Shown here one piece after another: positions 6,923 through 20,199 of a DNA stretch of 20,199 bases (position 1 is its first letter; each line of letters starts with the position of its first letter). A program made the translations under genes and the position numbers. The notes beneath the pieces are model-generated. The model was not told the DNA's origin. It did no database searches and saw only the letters and a list, made by a program, of their open reading frames with translations. Origin of the DNA: a virus; the IMG/VR virus record IMGVR_UViG_3300020020_000180, positions 1 through 20,199 of that record; one strand, 5' to 3'.

Positions 6923-7240
6923 TTATACCAAGTCTTCGTTCGCGTCTAAGGGCGCGCCGGCCTGTGCTTCTGCCAATGTGATCGGCGTCGGCGAAACAGG
7001 CGCGGGAGGGCGCGGCTTGCCGAGTTCATTCATCACGTCGATGAACGATTTTCCCGGCGAGACTTGTCCGTCATGGCGCTGGGGAGAAAGCTCGGCGTCC
7101 GCGGGCGCGGGGCCGACATCCTCGAACCAACCTTCTTTCACGTCCGCGCGCACGTAGAACGTCGCACCGACTCGCCGACGGTGACCGTCGTACGAGCCGG
7201 CGCGCAGCGCGCGAACCTCTTTCAACTTCTGCTGGGCCAT
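6923..7240 (-). CDS. Small head-region protein of unknown function
   Basis: The product has 105 residues. The N-terminal part (VRALRAGSYDGHRRRVGATF, then GWFEDVG) looks like a compact beta domain of a kind often found as a short gene between capsid cement and tail adaptor in BPP-1-like podophages. The rest is Pro/Ala-rich and probably disordered, and ends LDANEDLV, loosely recalling the acidic DL-ending tails further upstream. The ATG at 7240 has GGAG 6 bases before it. It is followed by the hairpin at 6886-6914, so it may be the last gene of the head transcript. A head-completion or decoration role is possible but unproven. Confidence 0.65.
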   Translation of the reverse strand: MAQQKLKEVRALRAGSYDGHRRRVGATFYVRADVKEGWFEDVGPAPADAELSPQRHDGQVSPGKSFIDVMNELGKPRPPAPVSPTPITLAEAQAGAPLDANEDLV

Positions 7241-9718: not shown

Positions 9719-10032
9719 GACTGATTCTCTTCCAACAGCTTGTGCGCCAACGTAGGCGTGACTCGCAAGAGCCGTGCCCACACCCGAAGCGCAACATTCC
9801 TCTCGCCCTCGCGGAAGTTTGTGTCCCCATCTACACCCGTGAAACTGATGCGCCACATCGGCGCGATGATGTCCCACACAATGCGACGGCCCGCGTTGTG
9901 CTGCATCATCCACATGTAATCTGTGTCGAGCTGGTGCTCGTACTGCTCCCGTGCCTTCGCTGCTTCCTCGCGCGCCTCGGCTTGGCCGGCGAGATCGAAG
10001 GTCGAGTCGAACTCGTCGCGCTCGCCGCTCAC
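9715..10032 (-). CDS. Bbp19-like phage protein
   Basis: The product has 105 residues. The N-terminal half is an acidic, Ala/Glu-rich helix (residues 1-38). The core DYMWMMQHNAGRRIVWDIIA, then TNFREGERNVALRVWARLL, matches the small domain named after BPP-1 Bbp19, in which a short W-rich helix and an FREG.R.VAL helix are the hallmarks. The family is virion-linked by gene neighbourhood; its function is not established to my knowledge. The GTG start at 10032 overlaps the endolysin stop (GTGA), and its own TGA overlaps the GTG of the HNH gene. It lies just before the scaffold and capsid genes. Confidence 0.75.
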   Translation of the reverse strand: MSGERDEFDSTFDLAGQAEAREEAAKAREQYEHQLDTDYMWMMQHNAGRRIVWDIIAPMWRISFTGVDGDTNFREGERNVALRVWARLLRVTPTLAHKLLEENQS

Positions 10033-10373
10033 TTCACACCCTCATGCTCGAACGAATAGTGGTTGCCGTCGTTGAAGCGCCCACCCCAGCGGCACATATC
10101 GTGCTGCTTCTCCCACCATTCACCCAGCTCACGATGATCTTCCGTAGCGCCGAGAAAACGTCCATCGGCCCGAAACAGATTGATGTCGATGGCGAGCTTA
10201 TTCTTGTGCGCGCTCTTAGGGTGACCGTAGCCGAGCTTTACACCTATCTCGCCATGCACGCGTGGATCACGGAACAAGTCGCCGAGCCGCGCGCGTAAGC
10301 CCAGCGCATGCACCTTGTCCAGCAAGCGTGGCACGAGCCGGGCAAACAACTCTTGCTTCTCGCCGAGCGTCAA
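10029..10373 (-). CDS. Endolysin, M15-family peptidase
   Basis: The product has 114 residues, a minimal D-Ala-D-Ala carboxypeptidase / L-alanyl-D-glutamate endopeptidase fold. Zinc ligands are visible as H56 and D63 in SAHKNKLAIDINLF and H105 in DGNHYSFEH, with WGGRF just before the last. These are the SxHxxxxAxD and DxxH motifs of the VanY-like M15 group. It has no signal peptide, so release to the periplasm would need a holin; the two-helix membrane protein at 11690-11947 is the candidate. The start is TTG at 10373, coupled to the preceding stop as TTGA. The length is typical of single-domain phage M15 lysins. Its role should be cleavage of peptidoglycan cross-bridges at lysis. Confidence 0.9.
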   Translation of the reverse strand: MTLGEKQELFARLVPRLLDKVHALGLRARLGDLFRDPRVHGEIGVKLGYGHPKSAHKNKLAIDINLFRADGRFLGATEDHRELGEWWEKQHDMCRWGGRFNDGNHYSFEHEGVK

Positions 10374-10741
10374 CGTGCGGCCTTCTTGAACAACCCGACG
10401 CTGAAGTTTGTCGGAGCCGTAGCGGCTGCTTGCCGGTATCGTACCTTCGAGAAACCCCGCACATCGAGCCGCAGCGCGATGTCCGCTGTCGAGACGACAA
10501 CGTACGTGCCCGGTGTGGCCGTGGTCAGCGGCTGCGCGCTAAGCGGGATCACGCCGAAGTTGGTGCCGTCGACCGAGCCCTCGATATCGTACGTACCGAG
10601 CAAGCTGTACGAGACCGCGTAGTCGTATCCACGCACATCGACGGTGAAGATGATGTCGTTGTCCGCGGCCCCAAGTCCGCCGCTGTACGTAACGACGTTC
10701 CCTTCCTGGTTCGCGTTCTTGGTCGGTGCTGTGAGTGCCAT
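10370..10741 (-). CDS. Beta-rich small protein, probable virion component
   Basis: The product has 123 residues and no recognised catalytic motif. It consists of alternating strands (DNDIIFTVDVRGYDYAVSYS, TYDIEGSVDGTNFGVIPLS, DIALRLDVRGFSKVRYRQA). The VDVRGYDYAVSY and LDVRGFSKVRYR segments look like two related halves, which suggests an internally repeated beta sandwich. This composition suits a decoration or fibre-base protein. The ATG at 10741 has AAGGAAC 4 bases upstream, and the preceding stop is 9 bases away. It overlaps the endolysin start. The function is inferred only from fold character and neighbours. Confidence 0.6.
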   Translation of the reverse strand: MALTAPTKNANQEGNVVTYSGGLGAADNDIIFTVDVRGYDYAVSYSLLGTYDIEGSVDGTNFGVIPLSAQPLTTATPGTYVVVSTADIALRLDVRGFSKVRYRQAAATAPTNFSVGLFKKAAR

Positions 10742-14617: not shown

Positions 14618-14917
14618 CTAGCTCCCTCTCTGCGGGAAAAGGCGACGCACTCGGTCACGTTCTGCTAGCACGTGCCGTGCGCGTTCTGATTGTGACGTTT
14701 GCTCGCGTGACAAACGATGCAGCGGGTACGCGATGGACATGTCCAACGATTCATCCTCCGTTTGTGACGGGAGCACGTAGCGCGTGCGTGTAGCCGCTGG
14801 GCTGCGTGAGCCTTGCTGGCCGAGGATGAATGGTACGACTGCGGGCAATGGGACCGGGACTCCTGAAAGCGAGGGCCTATCACCCTCACCTATAGCCCGC
14901 ACGCGCCCCGCCGTCAA
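14618..14917 (-). CDS. Hypothetical protein between terminase and portal genes
   Basis: The product has 99 residues with no recognised domain. It starts with TTG at 14917, overlapping the terminase stop as TTGA, and ends one base before the next start. The first half is rich in Pro, Gly and Val (GVPVPLPAVVPFILGQQGSR) and probably extended. The second half (SREQTSQSERARHVLAERDR) is a charged helix ending RRLFPQRGS. The strict coupling on both sides is the best sign that it is a real gene, since its composition could also fit chance coding. Confidence 0.5.
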   Translation of the reverse strand: MTAGRVRAIGEGDRPSLSGVPVPLPAVVPFILGQQGSRSPAATRTRYVLPSQTEDESLDMSIAYPLHRLSREQTSQSERARHVLAERDRVRRLFPQRGS

Positions 14918-16521
14918 AAGTTCATTGGATCGTAGCCACCGCCGTGGGGCGCAAGGTCAAGAACCCCCAGTGGATCATGGCCTAGCGCGGCGACGGCCTC
15001 GCGCTGCAGCTGGGCCAATTTGGGGGTTGACATTCGCGCGAGGACATAGGCCGAGCCCCAATCCGGCGAGCGCCCAATGCGCTTGATGATCTCTTCGCGG
15101 GTCTCGATCACGATGCGCCCACCAACGGCACGCCACAGCGGCGCGGCTAAATCTTTCGCGAGCTGCTTGTCGGGCGGCAGCGCGATGCCGCGATTGTTCG
15201 CCGGGTCCAAGTCTTCGCGCATCGACCACCACAAGTACGACTTCCAATTCGCGTAGTGCAATCCGCCCTGCGTGCGGAATCCCTCCGTACCTTCCTTGGC
15301 TCCGGCGTTCACACCGATAGTTTGAAACTTTGCGATGGTGAGGAAATCGTACGGCGAGCCGCCAACGCCGACAACGTCGATGTGCACGGGCGCGTCATCA
15401 CGCAGCGCAGCGACGACACGCGCCATCAGCGAGTATCCATTCGGCGTATCTTTGCCGGGGATTACGATAGGCACGTCGTACCAGTTATCGTGCCGGCGCG
15501 CTAGCACCGAGTTGTCTGCGCCGCCGCGTGCAACGTCGACGCCCATCGAGTCCATCGGCGGGATTCGATCACGTGGTTGCCAACGGGCCATTGCGGCATC
15601 GATCCACGCCGTCGGGATCACTTGCCACTCCGAGTCTTCAATGCCTGCATAAAAATCTCCGTTAAGCATCTGCGAGCGCAACGGCTCGGGAAGTGATTGC
15701 AGCTGCGCGAGATATTCCGCGCTCTGGTATTTGTTATCGGTCACCTTACTGCCGATGAAGGTGCGCGACTGCGGTTGAATGATCTGGATCGGCAGATACT
15801 CACGCGCGTCAAAATCGAATACCGGCTGGTTGTCGATGATCACGCAGCGCTTGTTCGGCACCTCGATATCGATCTGATCCTGCCCGCGCCCAACCGTGAT
15901 GAAGTGTCTGATCTCGCCATGCGCGGCGGGATTCTTCGCTTGCTTGTCTAACCACGGAGCAAAGTAGTCGATCACCCAGCGCCCCTCAGCAGTCTGTGGC
16001 GGGTTGAACGTCATCAGCTGCTCGCAGTATTGACCGGGCACGCGCGTGTTGCGCAACCATGTGCCGAGGAAGCGAATCTGTTTCGCGAGGAAGTTCGTCG
16101 CCTCGTCGTAGAACTTGAAGTCGTGCGGGTGGCCCTGATACTTCGTTTCGTCGCCAAGGTTCGGAATCGAGCCAAACGCGATGGTGCACGGCTTCCCGCT
16201 GCGCGTGAACCGCAACTGGTTCACATGCCCGCCTGCGAACCCATCCCGGTTCCCTTTCAACGCGAGGATGCGCTCGATGATCGGCTGCAACTCGGTGCCA
16301 ACGCGGCGCATGATCATGCTGTCACTGTGCTGGTTCAGCGCCTTGCCTGCGCCAAGATCAGTCTTGCCGCCGCCGGCTGCACCGCCGAAGCCGACGACCT
16401 GTGCCGGGCTCACATACGCAGCCATCTGCGGCAAGTTGCCTTTGTCGGGCAGCCACAGATTCGCACCGGCCTTCACCAGCGCGTACAGCTCGGATTCTTT
16501 CAACGCCTCATCGATGTACAT
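14914..16521 (-). CDS. Terminase large subunit
   Basis: The product has 535 residues starting MYIDEALKESELYALVKAG. The ATG at 16521 shares its A with the stop of the 27-residue frame before it (TGATG) and has GAGGA 7 bases upstream; the open frame extends 56 codons further but is not gene-like there. The ATPase domain has Walker A GGAAGGGKT (46-54), Walker B FKFYDEA (D139, E140) and coupling motif TFNPP (171-175). The RNase H-like nuclease has D329 in MGVDVARGG, D382 in HIDVVGVGG and D487 in RSPDWGSAYV. All three acidic positions are present, so both motor and headful-type nuclease should work. It drives DNA into the procapsid through the portal encoded just downstream. Confidence 0.95.
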   Translation of the reverse strand: MYIDEALKESELYALVKAGANLWLPDKGNLPQMAAYVSPAQVVGFGGAAGGGKTDLGAGKALNQHSDSMIMRRVGTELQPIIERILALKGNRDGFAGGHVNQLRFTRSGKPCTIAFGSIPNLGDETKYQGHPHDFKFYDEATNFLAKQIRFLGTWLRNTRVPGQYCEQLMTFNPPQTAEGRWVIDYFAPWLDKQAKNPAAHGEIRHFITVGRGQDQIDIEVPNKRCVIIDNQPVFDFDAREYLPIQIIQPQSRTFIGSKVTDNKYQSAEYLAQLQSLPEPLRSQMLNGDFYAGIEDSEWQVIPTAWIDAAMARWQPRDRIPPMDSMGVDVARGGADNSVLARRHDNWYDVPIVIPGKDTPNGYSLMARVVAALRDDAPVHIDVVGVGGSPYDFLTIAKFQTIGVNAGAKEGTEGFRTQGGLHYANWKSYLWWSMREDLDPANNRGIALPPDKQLAKDLAAPLWRAVGGRIVIETREEIIKRIGRSPDWGSAYVLARMSTPKLAQLQREAVAALGHDPLGVLDLAPHGGGYDPMNF

Positions 16522-16604
16522 CAGGCATCCTCGTGGCACGCTTCGATGGACTGGCACGAGCCAGTCAACCCAGCCACGATGTCGTGCGCGCGTTCCAGCT
16601 TCAT
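16521..16604 (-). CDS. 27-residue coupled open frame (microprotein or leader)
   Basis: A short frame, MKLERAHDIVAGLTGSCQSI then EACHEDA, fills exactly the space between the gene ending at 16601 and the terminase. Its ATG at 16604 overlaps the previous stop (ATGA) with GAGGA 6 bases before it. Its TGA shares a base with the terminase ATG, and its last codons (CACGAGGAT) supply the terminase Shine-Dalgarno. No function is recognised. It could be a real microprotein or simply a translated link that carries ribosomes into the terminase gene. Confidence 0.5.
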   Translation of the reverse strand: MKLERAHDIVAGLTGSCQSIEACHEDA

Positions 16605-16626
16605 AACAAATCCTCGTCGGGATCAC
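16599..16626. repeat. 28-bp gene-junction repeat, copy A
   Basis: The 28 bases match 17225-17252 with one mismatch, at the base that makes the downstream start ATG here and GTG there. On the minus strand it encodes the DPDEDLL tail, carries the Shine-Dalgarno GAGGA, the stop TGA, and the first two codons (MK) of the next frame. Confidence 0.85.
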
Positions 16627-16801
16627 ATTCCCCGAAATCAACACTGGTGTGAACTGCAGTCTGCTCGATGCGCGCATCGAGGTGCTCACGCACTAACACC
16701 AGCGCGTCATGCGCGGCGGGATCACCTTTCGCCAGCACAACGTCGTCGATGGCACAACACGCTACGTGTTGCAACGTCTGCATGTTGGTAACACTGCTCA
16801 T
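16601..16801 (-). CDS. Hypothetical 66-residue protein with DPDEDLL tail
   Basis: The protein starts MSSVTNMQTLQHVACCAIDD and continues with a helical middle (AAHDALVLVREHLDARIEQT). It ends FGECDPDEDLL, the same C-terminal tail as the small terminase subunit 626 bp upstream. It has three cysteines (two adjacent), no membrane helix and no recognised domain. The ATG at 16801 lacks a strong Shine-Dalgarno and lies 19 bases after the previous stop, one of the few looser junctions here. Its own stop overlaps the next ATG. It lies between the two terminase subunits, so a packaging accessory is conceivable but unproven. Confidence 0.55.
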   Translation of the reverse strand: MSSVTNMQTLQHVACCAIDDVVLAKGDPAAHDALVLVREHLDARIEQTAVHTSVDFGECDPDEDLL

Positions 16802-16820
16802 GCTGCTTCGGTCGGCATGC

Positions 16821-16940
16821 TCACTGCCAATAACTCCTGATCATGTGGTCGAGCCAATCCCCGTACGGCGTATCGTGCACACGAAGCACATCACCTGCAC
16901 TCGTTACCATGAAGCGCTCGCCGTTGCGTGTGAATATCAT
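16821..16940 (-). CDS. 39-residue hypothetical protein
   Basis: The protein reads MIFTRNGERFMVTSAGDVLR, then VHDTPYGDWLDHMIRSYWQ. I chose the ATG at 16940 because CGGGAG precedes it by 7 bases and ATGA overlaps the previous stop. A longer in-frame extension back to 17108 would run through the neighbouring gene and is Arg/Ala-rich noise. The N-terminus looks like a small beta hairpin and the C-terminus is aromatic. The function is not recognised. Confidence 0.5.
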   Translation of the reverse strand: MIFTRNGERFMVTSAGDVLRVHDTPYGDWLDHMIRSYWQ

Positions 16941-17230
16941 GCTGCTCTCCCGCGATGCGATGACGGATGATACCCCGCAGCACTCGATGTCTTTTGCTCG
17001 ATCACATTCGGCACGTACACGAACGGTGGGCGCATGCTCAAGCGCGTGCGGATGCGCTGTCGCCGCGCGTAGCCGGGCACACCGTGACGCGCATCGATGC
17101 TGCGCCAAGCCTTCGCGCGATAGATGTGCGTGAACGTTGCGCCCATCGGGTGTCGCGCATCAGCGAGCCGCGAATGCTCGATGTACAACTGCGGGTAGCC
17201 GATGGGCAAACGGTGGATGTCTATCTTCAC
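16937..17230 (-). CDS. Hypothetical 97-residue protein
   Basis: The GTG start at 17230 overlaps the small terminase stop (GTGA), with GAGGA 6 bases before it inside copy B of the junction repeat. The product starts MKIDIHRLPIGYPQLYIEHS and is rich in Arg, His and Tyr (THIYRAKAWRSIDARHG, PPFVYVPNVIEQKTSS). It is basic and has no cysteine, membrane helix or known motif. The strand-like first part and basic charge would allow nucleic-acid binding, but nothing specific is seen. Coupling at both ends supports it as a gene. Confidence 0.5.
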   Translation of the reverse strand: MKIDIHRLPIGYPQLYIEHSRLADARHPMGATFTHIYRAKAWRSIDARHGVPGYARRQRIRTRLSMRPPFVYVPNVIEQKTSSAAGYHPSSHRGRAA

Positions 17231-17252
17231 AACAAATCCTCGTCGGGATCAC
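17225..17252. repeat. 28-bp gene-junction repeat, copy B
   Basis: This is the second copy of the junction repeat at 16599-16626, same orientation, one mismatch. It spans the end of the small terminase gene and the GTG start of the next gene. Because it holds stop, Shine-Dalgarno and start together, it works as a coupling cassette. Confidence 0.85.
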
Positions 17253-17823
17253 GCACCTTGCGACGCGCGAGCGCGCGGTCTTCGAGATACGTCAGCAACG
17301 CTTGCGCCTCGGCGTCATTCGTCGCGTTCGCTGTCGGGATAGTGTTCACACTCACTTCGCTGCGATCCTTGAACTGCTCGGGATAGATCGCCTTGAGCAG
17401 CGCGAGCAACAACGAGTTCGTCGTTACGAGTTCTTTCACCGTCACCGGCTTGCGCACGGTGCCGGGCTTCGCGTTGCCTTCATCGTCCAGCTCGTAGCCG
17501 TTGGGGTACTCGTAGCTCACGTGCCCTTGATGCGTGAGCACCTTGTCGACACCTACGGTGCATTGTTCGAGTGCAATTTCCAACATCGCGCCGCCACGCA
17601 CAGCGAGCGCGAGCTTGACATCGTTCTCGAACGCATCGTCAGCACGACGCTCGCGCACGAAGCTCATGTAAGGCAAATCGAGATCGGCAGCGGCACCATG
17701 CAGCGAGCGACCGTGCGCGATGCGTTCGAGGTACGCGTTCTTCTGTTCGGTCGTCGGCACGATGATCACGCTATGCGCGCCAGTGACGGGGACCATCTGC
17801 TGTGGCGGGATGCGCTCGCTCAT
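17227..17823 (-). CDS. Terminase small subunit
   Basis: The product has 198 residues. Residues about 27-60 (KNAYLERIAHGRSLHGAAAD, then LPYMSFVRERRADDAF) form a helix-turn-helix of the kind that binds pac/cos DNA, followed by a long helix (DVKLALAVRGGAMLEIALEQ). LLLALLKAIYPEQFKDR (138-154) is the signature that many HTH-type small terminases carry after the oligomerisation region. The C-terminus is an acidic tail ending RDPDEDLL. The ATG at 17823 overlaps the previous stop (ATGA) with AAGGG close by. It lies upstream of the large subunit, separated by four tiny genes, and should select viral DNA and load the motor. Confidence 0.8.
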   Translation of the reverse strand: MSERIPPQQMVPVTGAHSVIIVPTTEQKNAYLERIAHGRSLHGAAADLDLPYMSFVRERRADDAFENDVKLALAVRGGAMLEIALEQCTVGVDKVLTHQGHVSYEYPNGYELDDEGNAKPGTVRKPVTVKELVTTNSLLLALLKAIYPEQFKDRSEVSVNTIPTANATNDAEAQALLTYLEDRALARRKVRDPDEDLL

Positions 17824-18143
17824 AAACCCTTCGCACGACGCGTCTGTCGTGACTCGGGCTGCACGGTGTCGTTAGCGTAGCCGAGCTGCCCTTCAGCAGC
17901 AGCGGTCACCAGCGCCTGTTTGTCTGCCCGTAGGAACGCACGCCGCGCGATGCGTTGCTCGCGAGTGAGCAGCCCCACACTCAACTCGGCAGAGATCACG
18001 TCGTGGATTGTGCGAACGAACCCGGCACGCATGGGCATGCACTTGGTGCAGATAGGCTCACCAGCGAACGGGGCACGGCGACGCCCCAGCGAGTTGCAGG
18101 CGCATCGTCCGAGCGTGCCGAAATTCAGGGTCGGGGATTTCAT
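17820..18143 (-). CDS. Putative zinc-binding small protein
   Basis: The product has 107 residues. Cysteines at 14, 16, 32 and 35 (RCACNSLGRRRAPF, PICTKC) form a CxC-x15-CxxC arrangement typical of a small zinc ribbon. The rest is helical and basic (REQRIARRAFLRADKQALVT) and ends RQTRRAKGL. A nucleic-acid-binding or regulatory role is plausible given its place between replication and terminase genes, but no family is recognised. The ATG at 18143 overlaps the previous stop. Its ribosome site is GGTGA, which pairs with the 5' part of the anti-Shine-Dalgarno and lies in the codons for the DPDGDLL tail. Confidence 0.6.
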   Translation of the reverse strand: MKSPTLNFGTLGRCACNSLGRRRAPFAGEPICTKCMPMRAGFVRTIHDVISAELSVGLLTREQRIARRAFLRADKQALVTAAAEGQLGYANDTVQPESRQTRRAKGL

Positions 18144-18679
18144 AGTAGGTCACCGTCGGGATCGCCAAGAAGTTGCGCGCCGGAAGAGCCCTCGTCTTCC
18201 CCCTCCATCCGGCCCCTATGCGGGATATAGGGGGCCGGAATTGTGAAGGGGGTAGACTCGGGAAGAGGTGAAATTACAGCGGGAATTTCTGCCCCCTCCG
18301 AGGGGGTAGCCGAGGGGGCAGAGGGGGTAGCCTTAAACACGTAAGGGTCTTCCAGCTCCACGCGCCGCGGATCACCCACCTCGGCGACCACAGCGCGCAG
18401 CGCTTTTTCGACGAGCGCGTGCAGCTCGGGACGACCCTCGCGCAGCTTCGCCACATCAGCGTGTTTAGCGAAGCGTGACTCCGACAACGACCAGCTGAAC
18501 CAGTAGTTACCCTTGTGTGGTACCGGGCGCGCGGAGATCAGCTTCATCGCAACCCACACACCGTGCTCTTGCAGCTCGCGTGCTAGTAGGTGCCACATTT
18601 CGTCCCCCAGCTTCAACACCGCTATGTGCAGCGCGTTGTGCGGTGTCTTGCCCATGTAAAGCCTAGATGAGATCGGCAT
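18140..18679 (-). CDS. Hypothetical protein with disordered linker and acidic tail
   Basis: The product has 179 residues. I chose the ATG at 18679, with GAGGAA upstream, giving a 17-base overlap with the previous gene; the ATG at 18655 is an alternative without a good ribosome site. The folded part (residues about 10-115) includes WHLLARELQEHGVWVAMKLI, HKGNYWFSWSLSESRF and PELHALVEKALRAVVAEVG. Residues 116-172 are rich in Pro, Ser, Thr and Glu (TPSAPSATPSEG), and the end is LLGDPDGDLL. A domain, long flexible linker and acidic hydrophobic tip recalls single-stranded DNA-binding proteins, but an OB fold is not evident. It lies just downstream of the replication ATPase, so a replication accessory is a reasonable guess. 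Confidence 0.6.
   Translation of the reverse strand: MPISSRLYMGKTPHNALHIAVLKLGDEMWHLLARELQEHGVWVAMKLISARPVPHKGNYWFSWSLSESRFAKHADVAKLREGRPELHALVEKALRAVVAEVGDPRRVELEDPYVFKATPSAPSATPSEGAEIPAVISPLPESTPFTIPAPYIPHRGRMEGEDEGSSGAQLLGDPDGDLL
18209..18238. other. GC-rich hairpin inside coding sequence
   Basis: CCGGCCCCTAT (18209-18219) pairs with ATAGGGGGCCGG (18227-18238), leaving one bulged G and a 7-base loop. It lies in the linker part of the 18140-18679 gene. It would be a very stable mRNA structure, perhaps slowing ribosomes or protecting the transcript, though it may only reflect composition. Confidence 0.5.
18230..18327. repeat. Cluster of five GGGGG tracts with GGGGGTAG units
   Basis: G5 tracts lie at 18230-18234, 18248-18252, 18302-18306, 18314-18318 and 18323-18327. 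Three of them continue as GGGGGTAG. The last three are separated by only 7 and 4 bases. On the coding strand they specify the repeated Thr-Pro units of the linker. The cluster looks like slippage-type expansion in a low-complexity stretch. Confidence 0.6.
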
Positions 18680-20199
18680 CGGGGTCTTCCTCTCTTGGTG
18701 ATGCCGCGAGGTGCAGCTTCGAGCGAATCAGCGTAACGGTGTGCGTCGCGTTGTCGACGATCACGATACCTTTCTCCGCGAGCGAGTTGAGCATGTTCTG
18801 CGCGCGCGTGACTCGGTTGTCCTGTCCGCTCGCGGGCGCAAGCAGCGACTCCGCATACGCGCCGAGGAATCTGTCAACATTGATCACGGGCTCGCCGTCG
18901 ACCGGCCACAGCGATTCGAGCGTGCTCAGCGCCAGCGCCGAGTTGCCGCGCTTCATGTTGTCGTCCAACTTCTTCGCCGGCTGCGCGTCTTCGAGCTTCA
19001 CGTGTTCCACACTCGCCGACGTGATCACGCCAACATCATCCATGTCGACTGGCACCTCGGTGAGCTTGAATGGATGCAGCACGCCTTCCTTGTTGCTGTT
19101 GCGCAACTTCGTGGGCACGAGATCGCGCAGCGGTGAGCCATCACGCTTCTTCACGAGTAGCTCGGCTTCAACACGCGCTTTGATCGATGAGTGGCCGCGC
19201 ATCCCCTTCGTTTCATCCTTACCAGTGTGATGCACGAGCAGGATCGTCGTGCCGAGCTGATCGTATATGCGCGCGATGTTTTCCATGACCGGCGACATAT
19301 CCTCGCCCTTGTTCTCGTCGGTGCCCGGCGTTGCAGCCGCCAACGTGTCGACGATTAGCAGGCGCAGTTTCAGTGGCCGCGCGGATTCGGTGAGCGCTTT
19401 CATCTGCTCAGCGTCCTGCATACGCACGCTGGTGCCAAGCACATAGAAGTCGACAAGCTCGTCAGGTGTCGTGTTGTGAGTCTTGCAGTACGCGAGCAGT
19501 CGATTGCGCATCGAGCCGTACGCCTCGGCCGCGATCCAGCCCACCGCGCCTTGCATCGTCTTGTACTCGCGCCAGTCGCTGCCGCGTGAGATCGCTAGGC
19601 CCATATCTAGCGCCTCGAATGACTTGCCGCTACCCGACGGGCCGTAAAGCGCGTTGATTCCTTCCTGCGGGAGAATGTCACGGATAAGCCACGGGGGCGA
19701 AGGCTCGGTGACGATCTGACTCGGGCGACGCCATTGGAATTGCGCGAGCCGTGCAGCGCGTGTCACTGCGTCCGCTTGCGCGAGCAAATCCTGATCGAGC
19801 GGCGGGCCGAAATCTGCGTCGGTCGCGACTATTTCTTGTCGCAAGCCTTCGAGCGTTGCCTTCGGCCCGGTACCGTGCCCGAACGAATCCCACTTCGCGC
19901 GCAGCGCTTCTTCGCCGGGGTACTTCTCGCCCTTGGCGCTCCACTCGTGCCACAAGTTGAAGCCGTCGTCGCCGCCGTCTGTGCCGTCGTGCAGGCGCAT
20001 GCCCATATCGCGCCACGTGTCGTAGTCACAGTCAGGATCGCGCGAGTCGAGCAGCGTGCGCACCCAGCCCAATTCGGGATTGACGGTCGCCAGTGAACCA
20101 CTGACCGGTGGTTCCTTGGGCTGGGTGCGCGCTACCATCGAGAGCCACAAATCGTGCAGCGGCTTCGGCAGCGGCGGCAGATTCTCCCAAGTGCCGGCG
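18663..20199 (-). CDS. Replicative primase/helicase: PriCT-2 plus RepA-type AAA ATPase, 5' end missing
   Basis: The frame is open to the right edge with no stop, and the edge codons (WENLPPLPKPLHDLW) read as protein, so the N-terminus is outside. Counting from the edge, residues about 38-110 (DYDTWRDMGMRLHD, LWHEWSAKGEKY, WDSFGHG) match a PriCT-2 domain. Walker A is GPSGSGKS (186-193), Walker B LLIVDTLAAA (about 280-289), followed by LVHHTGKDETKGMRGHSSIK, the sensor region of RepA/RecA-like hexameric helicases. PriCT-2 usually follows a prim-pol domain, so the missing part may be a bifunctional primase-polymerase. A winged-helix-like C-terminus (VTRAQNMLNSLAEKGIVIVD) ends EEDPDADLI. It probably primes and unwinds DNA at the phage origin. 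Confidence 0.85.
   Translation of the reverse strand, partial: AGTWENLPPLPKPLHDLWLSMVARTQPKEPPVSGSLATVNPELGWVRTLLDSRDPDCDYDTWRDMGMRLHDGTDGGDDGFNLWHEWSAKGEKYPGEEALRAKWDSFGHGTGPKATLEGLRQEIVATDADFGPPLDQDLLAQADAVTRAARLAQFQWRRPSQIVTEPSPPWLIRDILPQEGINALYGPSGSGKSFEALDMGLAISRGSDWREYKTMQGAVGWIAAEAYGSMRNRLLAYCKTHNTTPDELVDFYVLGTSVRMQDAEQMKALTESARPLKLRLLIVDTLAAATPGTDENKGEDMSPVMENIARIYDQLGTTILLVHHTGKDETKGMRGHSSIKARVEAELLVKKRDGSPLRDLVPTKLRNSNKEGVLHPFKLTEVPVDMDDVGVITSASVEHVKLEDAQPAKKLDDNMKRGNSALALSTLESLWPVDGEPVINVDRFLGAYAESLLAPASGQDNRVTRAQNMLNSLAEKGIVIVDNATHTVTLIRSKLHLAASPREEDPDADLI

Follow-up and report, generated by a model that had tools for sequence, protein, structure and literature searches.

An acidic C-terminal tail common to replication and packaging proteins of a BPP-1-like phage and its relatives as a putative docking peptide

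The window analysed here, the 20,199-bp virus record IMGVR_UViG_3300020020_000180 of IMG/VR, carries its genes on the minus strand and can be placed among the epsilon15/BPP-1-like podoviruses by matches of its head-tail adaptor and terminase. Four of its proteins, namely a helicase, a protein referred to below as the linker protein, the terminase small subunit (TerS) and a protein of 66 residues, end in the acidic-hydrophobic pattern DPDxD[LI][LI] directly at the stop codon. With a probability of about three in four, this tail serves as a docking peptide, added in modular fashion to the C-terminus and like the tail of the phage's own single-stranded DNA-binding protein (SSB), with a putative docking role common to its carriers. 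The peptide is under selection, is C-terminal, is common to non-homologous proteins, and is matched within and switched between phages; we infer that the tails of one phage have one receptor in common.

The helicase is of the RepA type with a PriCT-2 domain (18663..20199; Pfam AAA_25 and PriCT_2, PHROG 2850 and 906), its reading frame being open at the window edge with the start lying beyond it, and it ends in REEDPDADLI (tail codons 18666..18686). The linker protein (18140..18679) consists of a domain of about 90 residues, a proline-rich disordered stretch and the C-terminus LLGDPDGDLL (tail codons 18143..18163). TerS (17227..17823, C-terminus KVRDPDEDLL, tail codons 17230..17250) was recognised both by its match to PHROG 4044, terminase small subunit (E 1.4e-7), and by the position of its gene upstream of that of the terminase large subunit (TerL, 14914-16521). 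The small protein of 66 (or 60) residues (16601..16801) ends in GECDPDEDLL (tail codons 16604..16624) and is similar to a protein of 74 residues in the related record L007. An earlier note, made from the letters of this DNA, had placed the four tails at the stops 18663, 18140, 17227 and 16601 and had found none on window genes ending in AKGL, GRAA and SYWQ, and both observations were confirmed. Across the six frames of the window the pattern occurs at those four stops only, and since the chance of a single protein ending in it is about 3e-7, as judged from the amino-acid composition of the window, four tails among 26 genes are not a product of chance. A fifth tail-bearer, beyond the range of the earlier note, is a small protein of the head region (6923..7240), which ends in DANEDLV and occupies the same position as bbp15 of BPP-1 (ending in SGGDLV). 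Between the gene for the 66-residue protein and TerL there is in addition a 27-codon open reading frame (MKLERAHDIVAG...HEDA; window 16520-16603, minus strand), which overlaps both neighbours by start/stop and may be a coupled short leader. A match to defence systems was sought for the small window proteins, and none was found.

With respect to close relatives, the TerL of L004/L007 is about 70% identical to that of the window, and the same four proteins are tailed in L007, the helicase ending in DSDADIL, the linker protein in DPDGDLL, TerS in DPDGDIL and the 74-residue small protein (2210-2434, C-terminus GHDPDGDLL) in DPDGDLL. In L005, the helicase, linker protein and TerS end in VGDLI, VDDLI and GSDLI, respectively. 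Over the last eight codons of the linker gene, window and L007 differ by five synonymous and no nonsynonymous changes in proteins that are 36% identical, so that the comparison of the two kinds of change proposed in the earlier note has come out in favour of the peptide being kept. Nor did the relatives display the pattern which that note had set against its own idea, that is, ribosome-binding bases retained and the peptide lost.

The tail is a modular addition, since both the linker domain and the helicase occur elsewhere without the extension. In many phages, homologues of the linker domain of about 90 residues terminate where the domain ends and lack the proline-rich stretch and the acidic tail, and helicase relatives beyond this group mostly stop near the end of a putative winged helix. 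Homologues of TerS down to about 25% identity mostly end in [acidic]..DL[V/A/I/L]. The entropy of TerS lies between 0.5 and 1.8 bits over its three terminal positions and between 2 and 3.3 bits for most of those further upstream. An IMG/VR search with the single TerS protein gave no match and a search with the helicase two distant loci only, and the record of the closest relative, G022, ends at TerL, its genes upstream of TerL lying out of view. The linker protein was modelled as four strands followed by helices, with low confidence past residue ~110; the fold search with it gave no confident structural match, and Pur-alpha chains recurred at Z 2.3-4.5, which is no better than the values of unrelated matches. 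Given these recurring weak matches to a protein that binds single-stranded DNA, an SSB-like layout of domain, linker and acidic tail is possible at 18140-18655 (minus strand).

The distribution of the tail was followed across about 29 BPP-1/epsilon15-like phage genomes or records, most of them gene-called by a simple caller of our own, with [DEG][LF][VALI] at the stop codon taken as the tail pattern. It was found on TerS in 21 of 24 cases, on the DUF2800 exonuclease in 16 of 21, on the DUF2815 gp2.5-like SSB in 15 of 21 and on the methyltransferase in four of five, on 26 of the 1178 remaining genes, and on none of 99 genes for TerL, portal, DNA polymerase and SNF2 proteins. The SSB of these relatives was recognised by the PF10991 profile together with an OB-fold like that of 5ODJ and 1JE5. 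The tail is acidic (fraction ~0.76 at position -3, with more acidic positions upstream) and, in a model of the SSB, disordered (pLDDT < 50). The same proteins are thus tailed in relatives, and among phages at a greater distance the tail is also borne by the SSB, which largely supports the acidic-hydrophobic interaction tag suggested in the earlier note. In addition, TerS bears the tail in 17 of 22 genomes with the SSB module but in none of four without the SSB/exonuclease module (Fisher's exact test, p = 0.008, or 0.03 when the ambiguous genome G020 is counted), these four being complete or near-complete and all having TerL. No tail set was seen in epsilon15, DC33 and zth2-2.

The letters of the tail agree within one genome. 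In G006, TerS ends in DLDGLV, the exonuclease in EMEGLV and the SSB in EAEGLV; in G014 the corresponding ends are FGDLA, ADDLA and AEDFA; and in BPP-1 the exonuclease (VEDLV), SSB (AADLV), bbp15 (GGDLV), TerS (AAGLV) and methyltransferase (VADLI) form a set. Among 122 further loci with exonuclease and SSB (L165-L290), the two proteins commonly have a longer two-part tail in common, roughly [DE][DE]F[DE][DE][VIL]-x(n)-[DE]DL[VIA], whose upstream motif represents a second common element. Among 55 pairs of exonuclease and SSB, dereplicated at an SSB identity of 80%, the last residue was identical in 23 pairs as compared to 11.6 expected, and the last four residues yielded 97 identities as compared to 54 expected, values that none of 5000 shuffles across genomes reached. 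Where the last residue of the SSB had changed between closest pairs, the exonuclease followed in 17 cases and crossed in none, 51 cases being uninformative, and proteins matching the tail of their own SSB numbered 43, against 4.4 expected when the comparison is made with phages whose tails have a different last residue. Caulobacter phage RapA (L092) has a second tail set beside FRDLV, comprising 9808-10434 (..DDDDDQV), 18665-19036 (..DEDDQV) and the primase (..DDDGV).

A switch of the whole set can be seen in the siphovirus family Casjensviridae. In Enc34, the primase (DEDEV), exonuclease (DDDEV), SSB (DEDEV), TerS (DDDEV), ORF3 (EEEEV) and ORF17 (ADDEV) share one type of end, and phage Chi has a set matching these -DEV ends on primase, exonuclease, SSB, TerS and the small post-capsid protein of the head region, plus a PAPS reductase ending in DDEV. 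BcepNazgul, which has the same replication gene set, carries NGGL on the SSB, DDGL on the exonuclease, GCGL on the primase and DPAAGL on TerS, and in addition DPAAGL on RusA, TAAGL on the SNF2 helicase, AEGL on a ParB-like protein and ASGL on a post-capsid protein, GL ends being present in 11 of its 71 annotated proteins. TerS belongs to PF20901 in BPP-1 and to PF07278 in Enc34, each bearing the tail of its own phage, and the shared tail is therefore not accounted for by descent of a single TerS. In Casjensviridae, the tailed gene that follows the one for the major head protein codes for DUF7443 (PF24227; L292:17801-18085, L353:18207-18500, L352:39055-39312), and BPP-1-like phages also have a tailed small protein at a similar position.

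If the tail is a docking peptide, DNA-processing proteins (helicase-primase, exonuclease, TerS, resolvase, methyltransferase and small accessory proteins) would each possess a flexible acidic stretch with a short hydrophobic C-terminus. With its carboxylate free, this tail would dock at a single site, common to all of them, of the phage's replication and recombination machinery, which would bring unwinding, annealing, end-processing and packaging together on the same DNA. Since the receptor would co-evolve with the tail, all proteins of one phage would change their tails together. The most likely receptor is the groove in which the phage SSB binds DNA, and the second choice is the DNA polymerase of the phage, by analogy with T7, because TerL, and PolA as the sole receptor, are disfavoured: homologues of TerL occur in genomes whose TerS is tail-less, and tails persist in G005 and G012 alongside a polymerase of the family-B-like type. 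The SNF2 helicase was rejected as a receptor, being itself tailed in BcepNazgul. An alignment of 18 SSB sequences proved too diverse to be scanned. That a single partner is addressed, as put forward in the earlier note, fits with TerS, exonuclease, primase and other proteins matching the SSB tail of their own phage, the groove being the candidate for this partner.

Bacterial SSB is comparable in that its tip DDDIPF, an acidic stretch with a hydrophobic C-terminus, acts as a docking peptide for partners that carry pockets; here, however, the partners are tailed as well, and the terminal Ile-Pro-Phe is not found. Sliding-clamp motifs (QxxLF or PIP box) similarly equip many DNA enzymes with a single short motif that addresses one hub, but the tail described here is strictly C-terminal, lacks an aromatic end and varies in sequence from phage to phage, and the conserved Gln of QxxLF is absent at the required place in the window tails and is not the rule in those of the family. 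Another comparable system is the DUF2815 SSB of Enc34 (5ODJ, PF10991), which belongs to the same family as the SSB of the relatives and has an acidic C-terminal tail. According to the respective paper, the tail sits in the groove of a neighbouring molecule in the crystal, and its removal abolishes the discrimination against double-stranded DNA, allowing the protein to bind it (PMC5686142). In the passages considered here the SSB tail is treated alone, whereas matching tails of primase, exonuclease and TerS are described here.

In T7, the known precedent, the acidic tail of the helicase-primase gp4 binds basic patches on the DNA polymerase gp5 (PMC12593628), and a phage polymerase as the common receptor is accordingly a possible, if rather unlikely, alternative to the SSB groove. 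The likeness to T7 lies in SSB and helicase of one phage sharing a tail that is acidic and flexible and closes with a hydrophobic residue, gp2.5 and gp4 both ending in acidic ..DF; a tail common to the SSB and another replication protein is likewise present in the relatives, the SSB of the window being out of view. In line with a polymerase receptor, PolA is itself tail-less in most tail-bearing genomes. However, G005 and G012 have retained the tails of SSB and TerS although the polymerase family differs, a PHROG 1252 family-B-like DNA polymerase (L110:15056-16834, L113:17604-19397) replacing the PolA-type enzyme of their relatives. The T7 system further differs in its Phe end and in the number of carriers, as only gp2.5 and gp4 of seven T7 proteins inspected share the tail, whereas in the present phages TerS, exonuclease, primase, resolvase, methyltransferase and small proteins are added, with ends in L, I, V or A, in -DEV or in -GL. 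In place of an aromatic last residue, the window has L, I or V and most relatives L, I, V or A.

Since the tails are located in overlapping genes, a ribosome-binding cassette had to be considered a serious rival, and the DNA was therefore checked first. The tail would then be the by-product of a copied DNA element from which the next gene obtains its start codon and its ribosome-binding bases. Indeed, the tails of TerS and the 66-residue protein have an exact 20-nt stretch in common, GATCCCGACGAGGATTTGTT, which holds GAGGA six nucleotides ahead of the next GTG or ATG (in TerS at 17241-17237, possible ribosome-binding bases for the GTG start at 17230), and GAYCCCGATGGAGAC is present three times in L007. 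The earlier note's statement that the codons differ between copies consequently fails for this pair and holds for the others. The gene that follows has its start codon and ribosome-binding bases overlapped by the tail codons in the case of TerS, the 66-residue protein and the linker protein (here an ATG at 18143). In the helicase, by contrast, the next ATG (18679, of the linker gene) lies within the tail and not downstream of it, and the orthologue in L007 has the same overlapping start, MP[IT]SSRL. An immediately overlapping downstream start is thus found for three of the four copies in the window and is not general in relatives: the next start is at least 15 nt away for 13 of 18 SSB tails in other phages, for six of eight tails of head-region proteins and for eight of 16 exonuclease tails. 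Furthermore, the relatives use TGA, TAA and TAG stops and mixed synonymous codons, the changes in the linker tail between window and L007 are all synonymous, and genes of the same chain with overlapping starts (..AKGL) have no tail. On this evidence from spacing, codons and stop codons, translation coupling was rejected as the general cause, and a mere DNA by-product is quite improbable, while in the clade of the window the tail codons probably serve both the peptide and ribosome binding.

A shared degradation signal, by which one protease would remove replication and packaging proteins together, is more improbable still. The exact C-terminal position and the hydrophobic last residues would be in keeping with C-terminal degrons in general; however, the acidic ends -DDEV and -DEDLL are unlike the ssrA-type tag, which ends in -LAA, the presence of the tail on TerS tracks the SSB module, and the SSB tail has documented functions towards DNA or partners in T7 and in Enc34 (PMC5686142). 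Least probable of all is a signal that brings the tailed proteins to the head or terminase, with some of them entering the capsid, for although TerS and a small protein encoded beside the major head protein are tailed in several phages, TerS is tail-less in phages that share TerL but lack the SSB module, and most carriers are replication or recombination enzymes.

Several points weigh against the docking reading. The window is a fragment whose own SSB and polymerase regions are outside the view, and gene calls are approximate outside annotated records. The likeness of the tails in the window clade is partly an identity of DNA that also serves the ribosome-binding site of the next gene, and the permutation tests reduce the effect of shared ancestry and do not fully remove it. 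There are also exceptions: G020 has a TerS tail, and an SSB was not found in its 37 kb; JWX, PaMx28 and Acinetobacter 4316 have the module without matching tails; and the TerS of BcepC6B and the exonucleases of G005 and G012 lack a matching tail.

No description of tail sharing by multiple proteins was found in the open-access literature searched. More tentatively, and with somewhat less than even confidence, many tailed phages might run a phage-specific C-terminal "address code", set by the SSB groove or another single hub, borne by up to about ten proteins of replication, recombination and DNA packaging, and rewritten in concert upon a change of the hub. Such a code would link replication physically to packaging and separate the machineries of co-infecting phages. 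If the docking reading is true, the last few residues could be used to assign hypothetical phage proteins to the replication and packaging machinery. Because the small terminase bears the same putative docking tail as the SSB, this reading would also provide a direct handle on the coupling of replication and packaging, a long-standing question. The concerted switch from -DEV to -GL between orthologous sets would represent a natural swap experiment for finding the receptor.

Two records deserve mention with respect to their annotation. Limnohabitans phage DC33 (L096, PQ492659) is assigned to the Inoviridae in its record, yet it has terminase and head-tail adaptor genes of tailed phages. In BcepC6B, the annotated methyltransferase gp33 (L091:31489-32542) overlaps a long frame ending in DDGADLA, which may reflect a frameshift or an annotation in the wrong frame.

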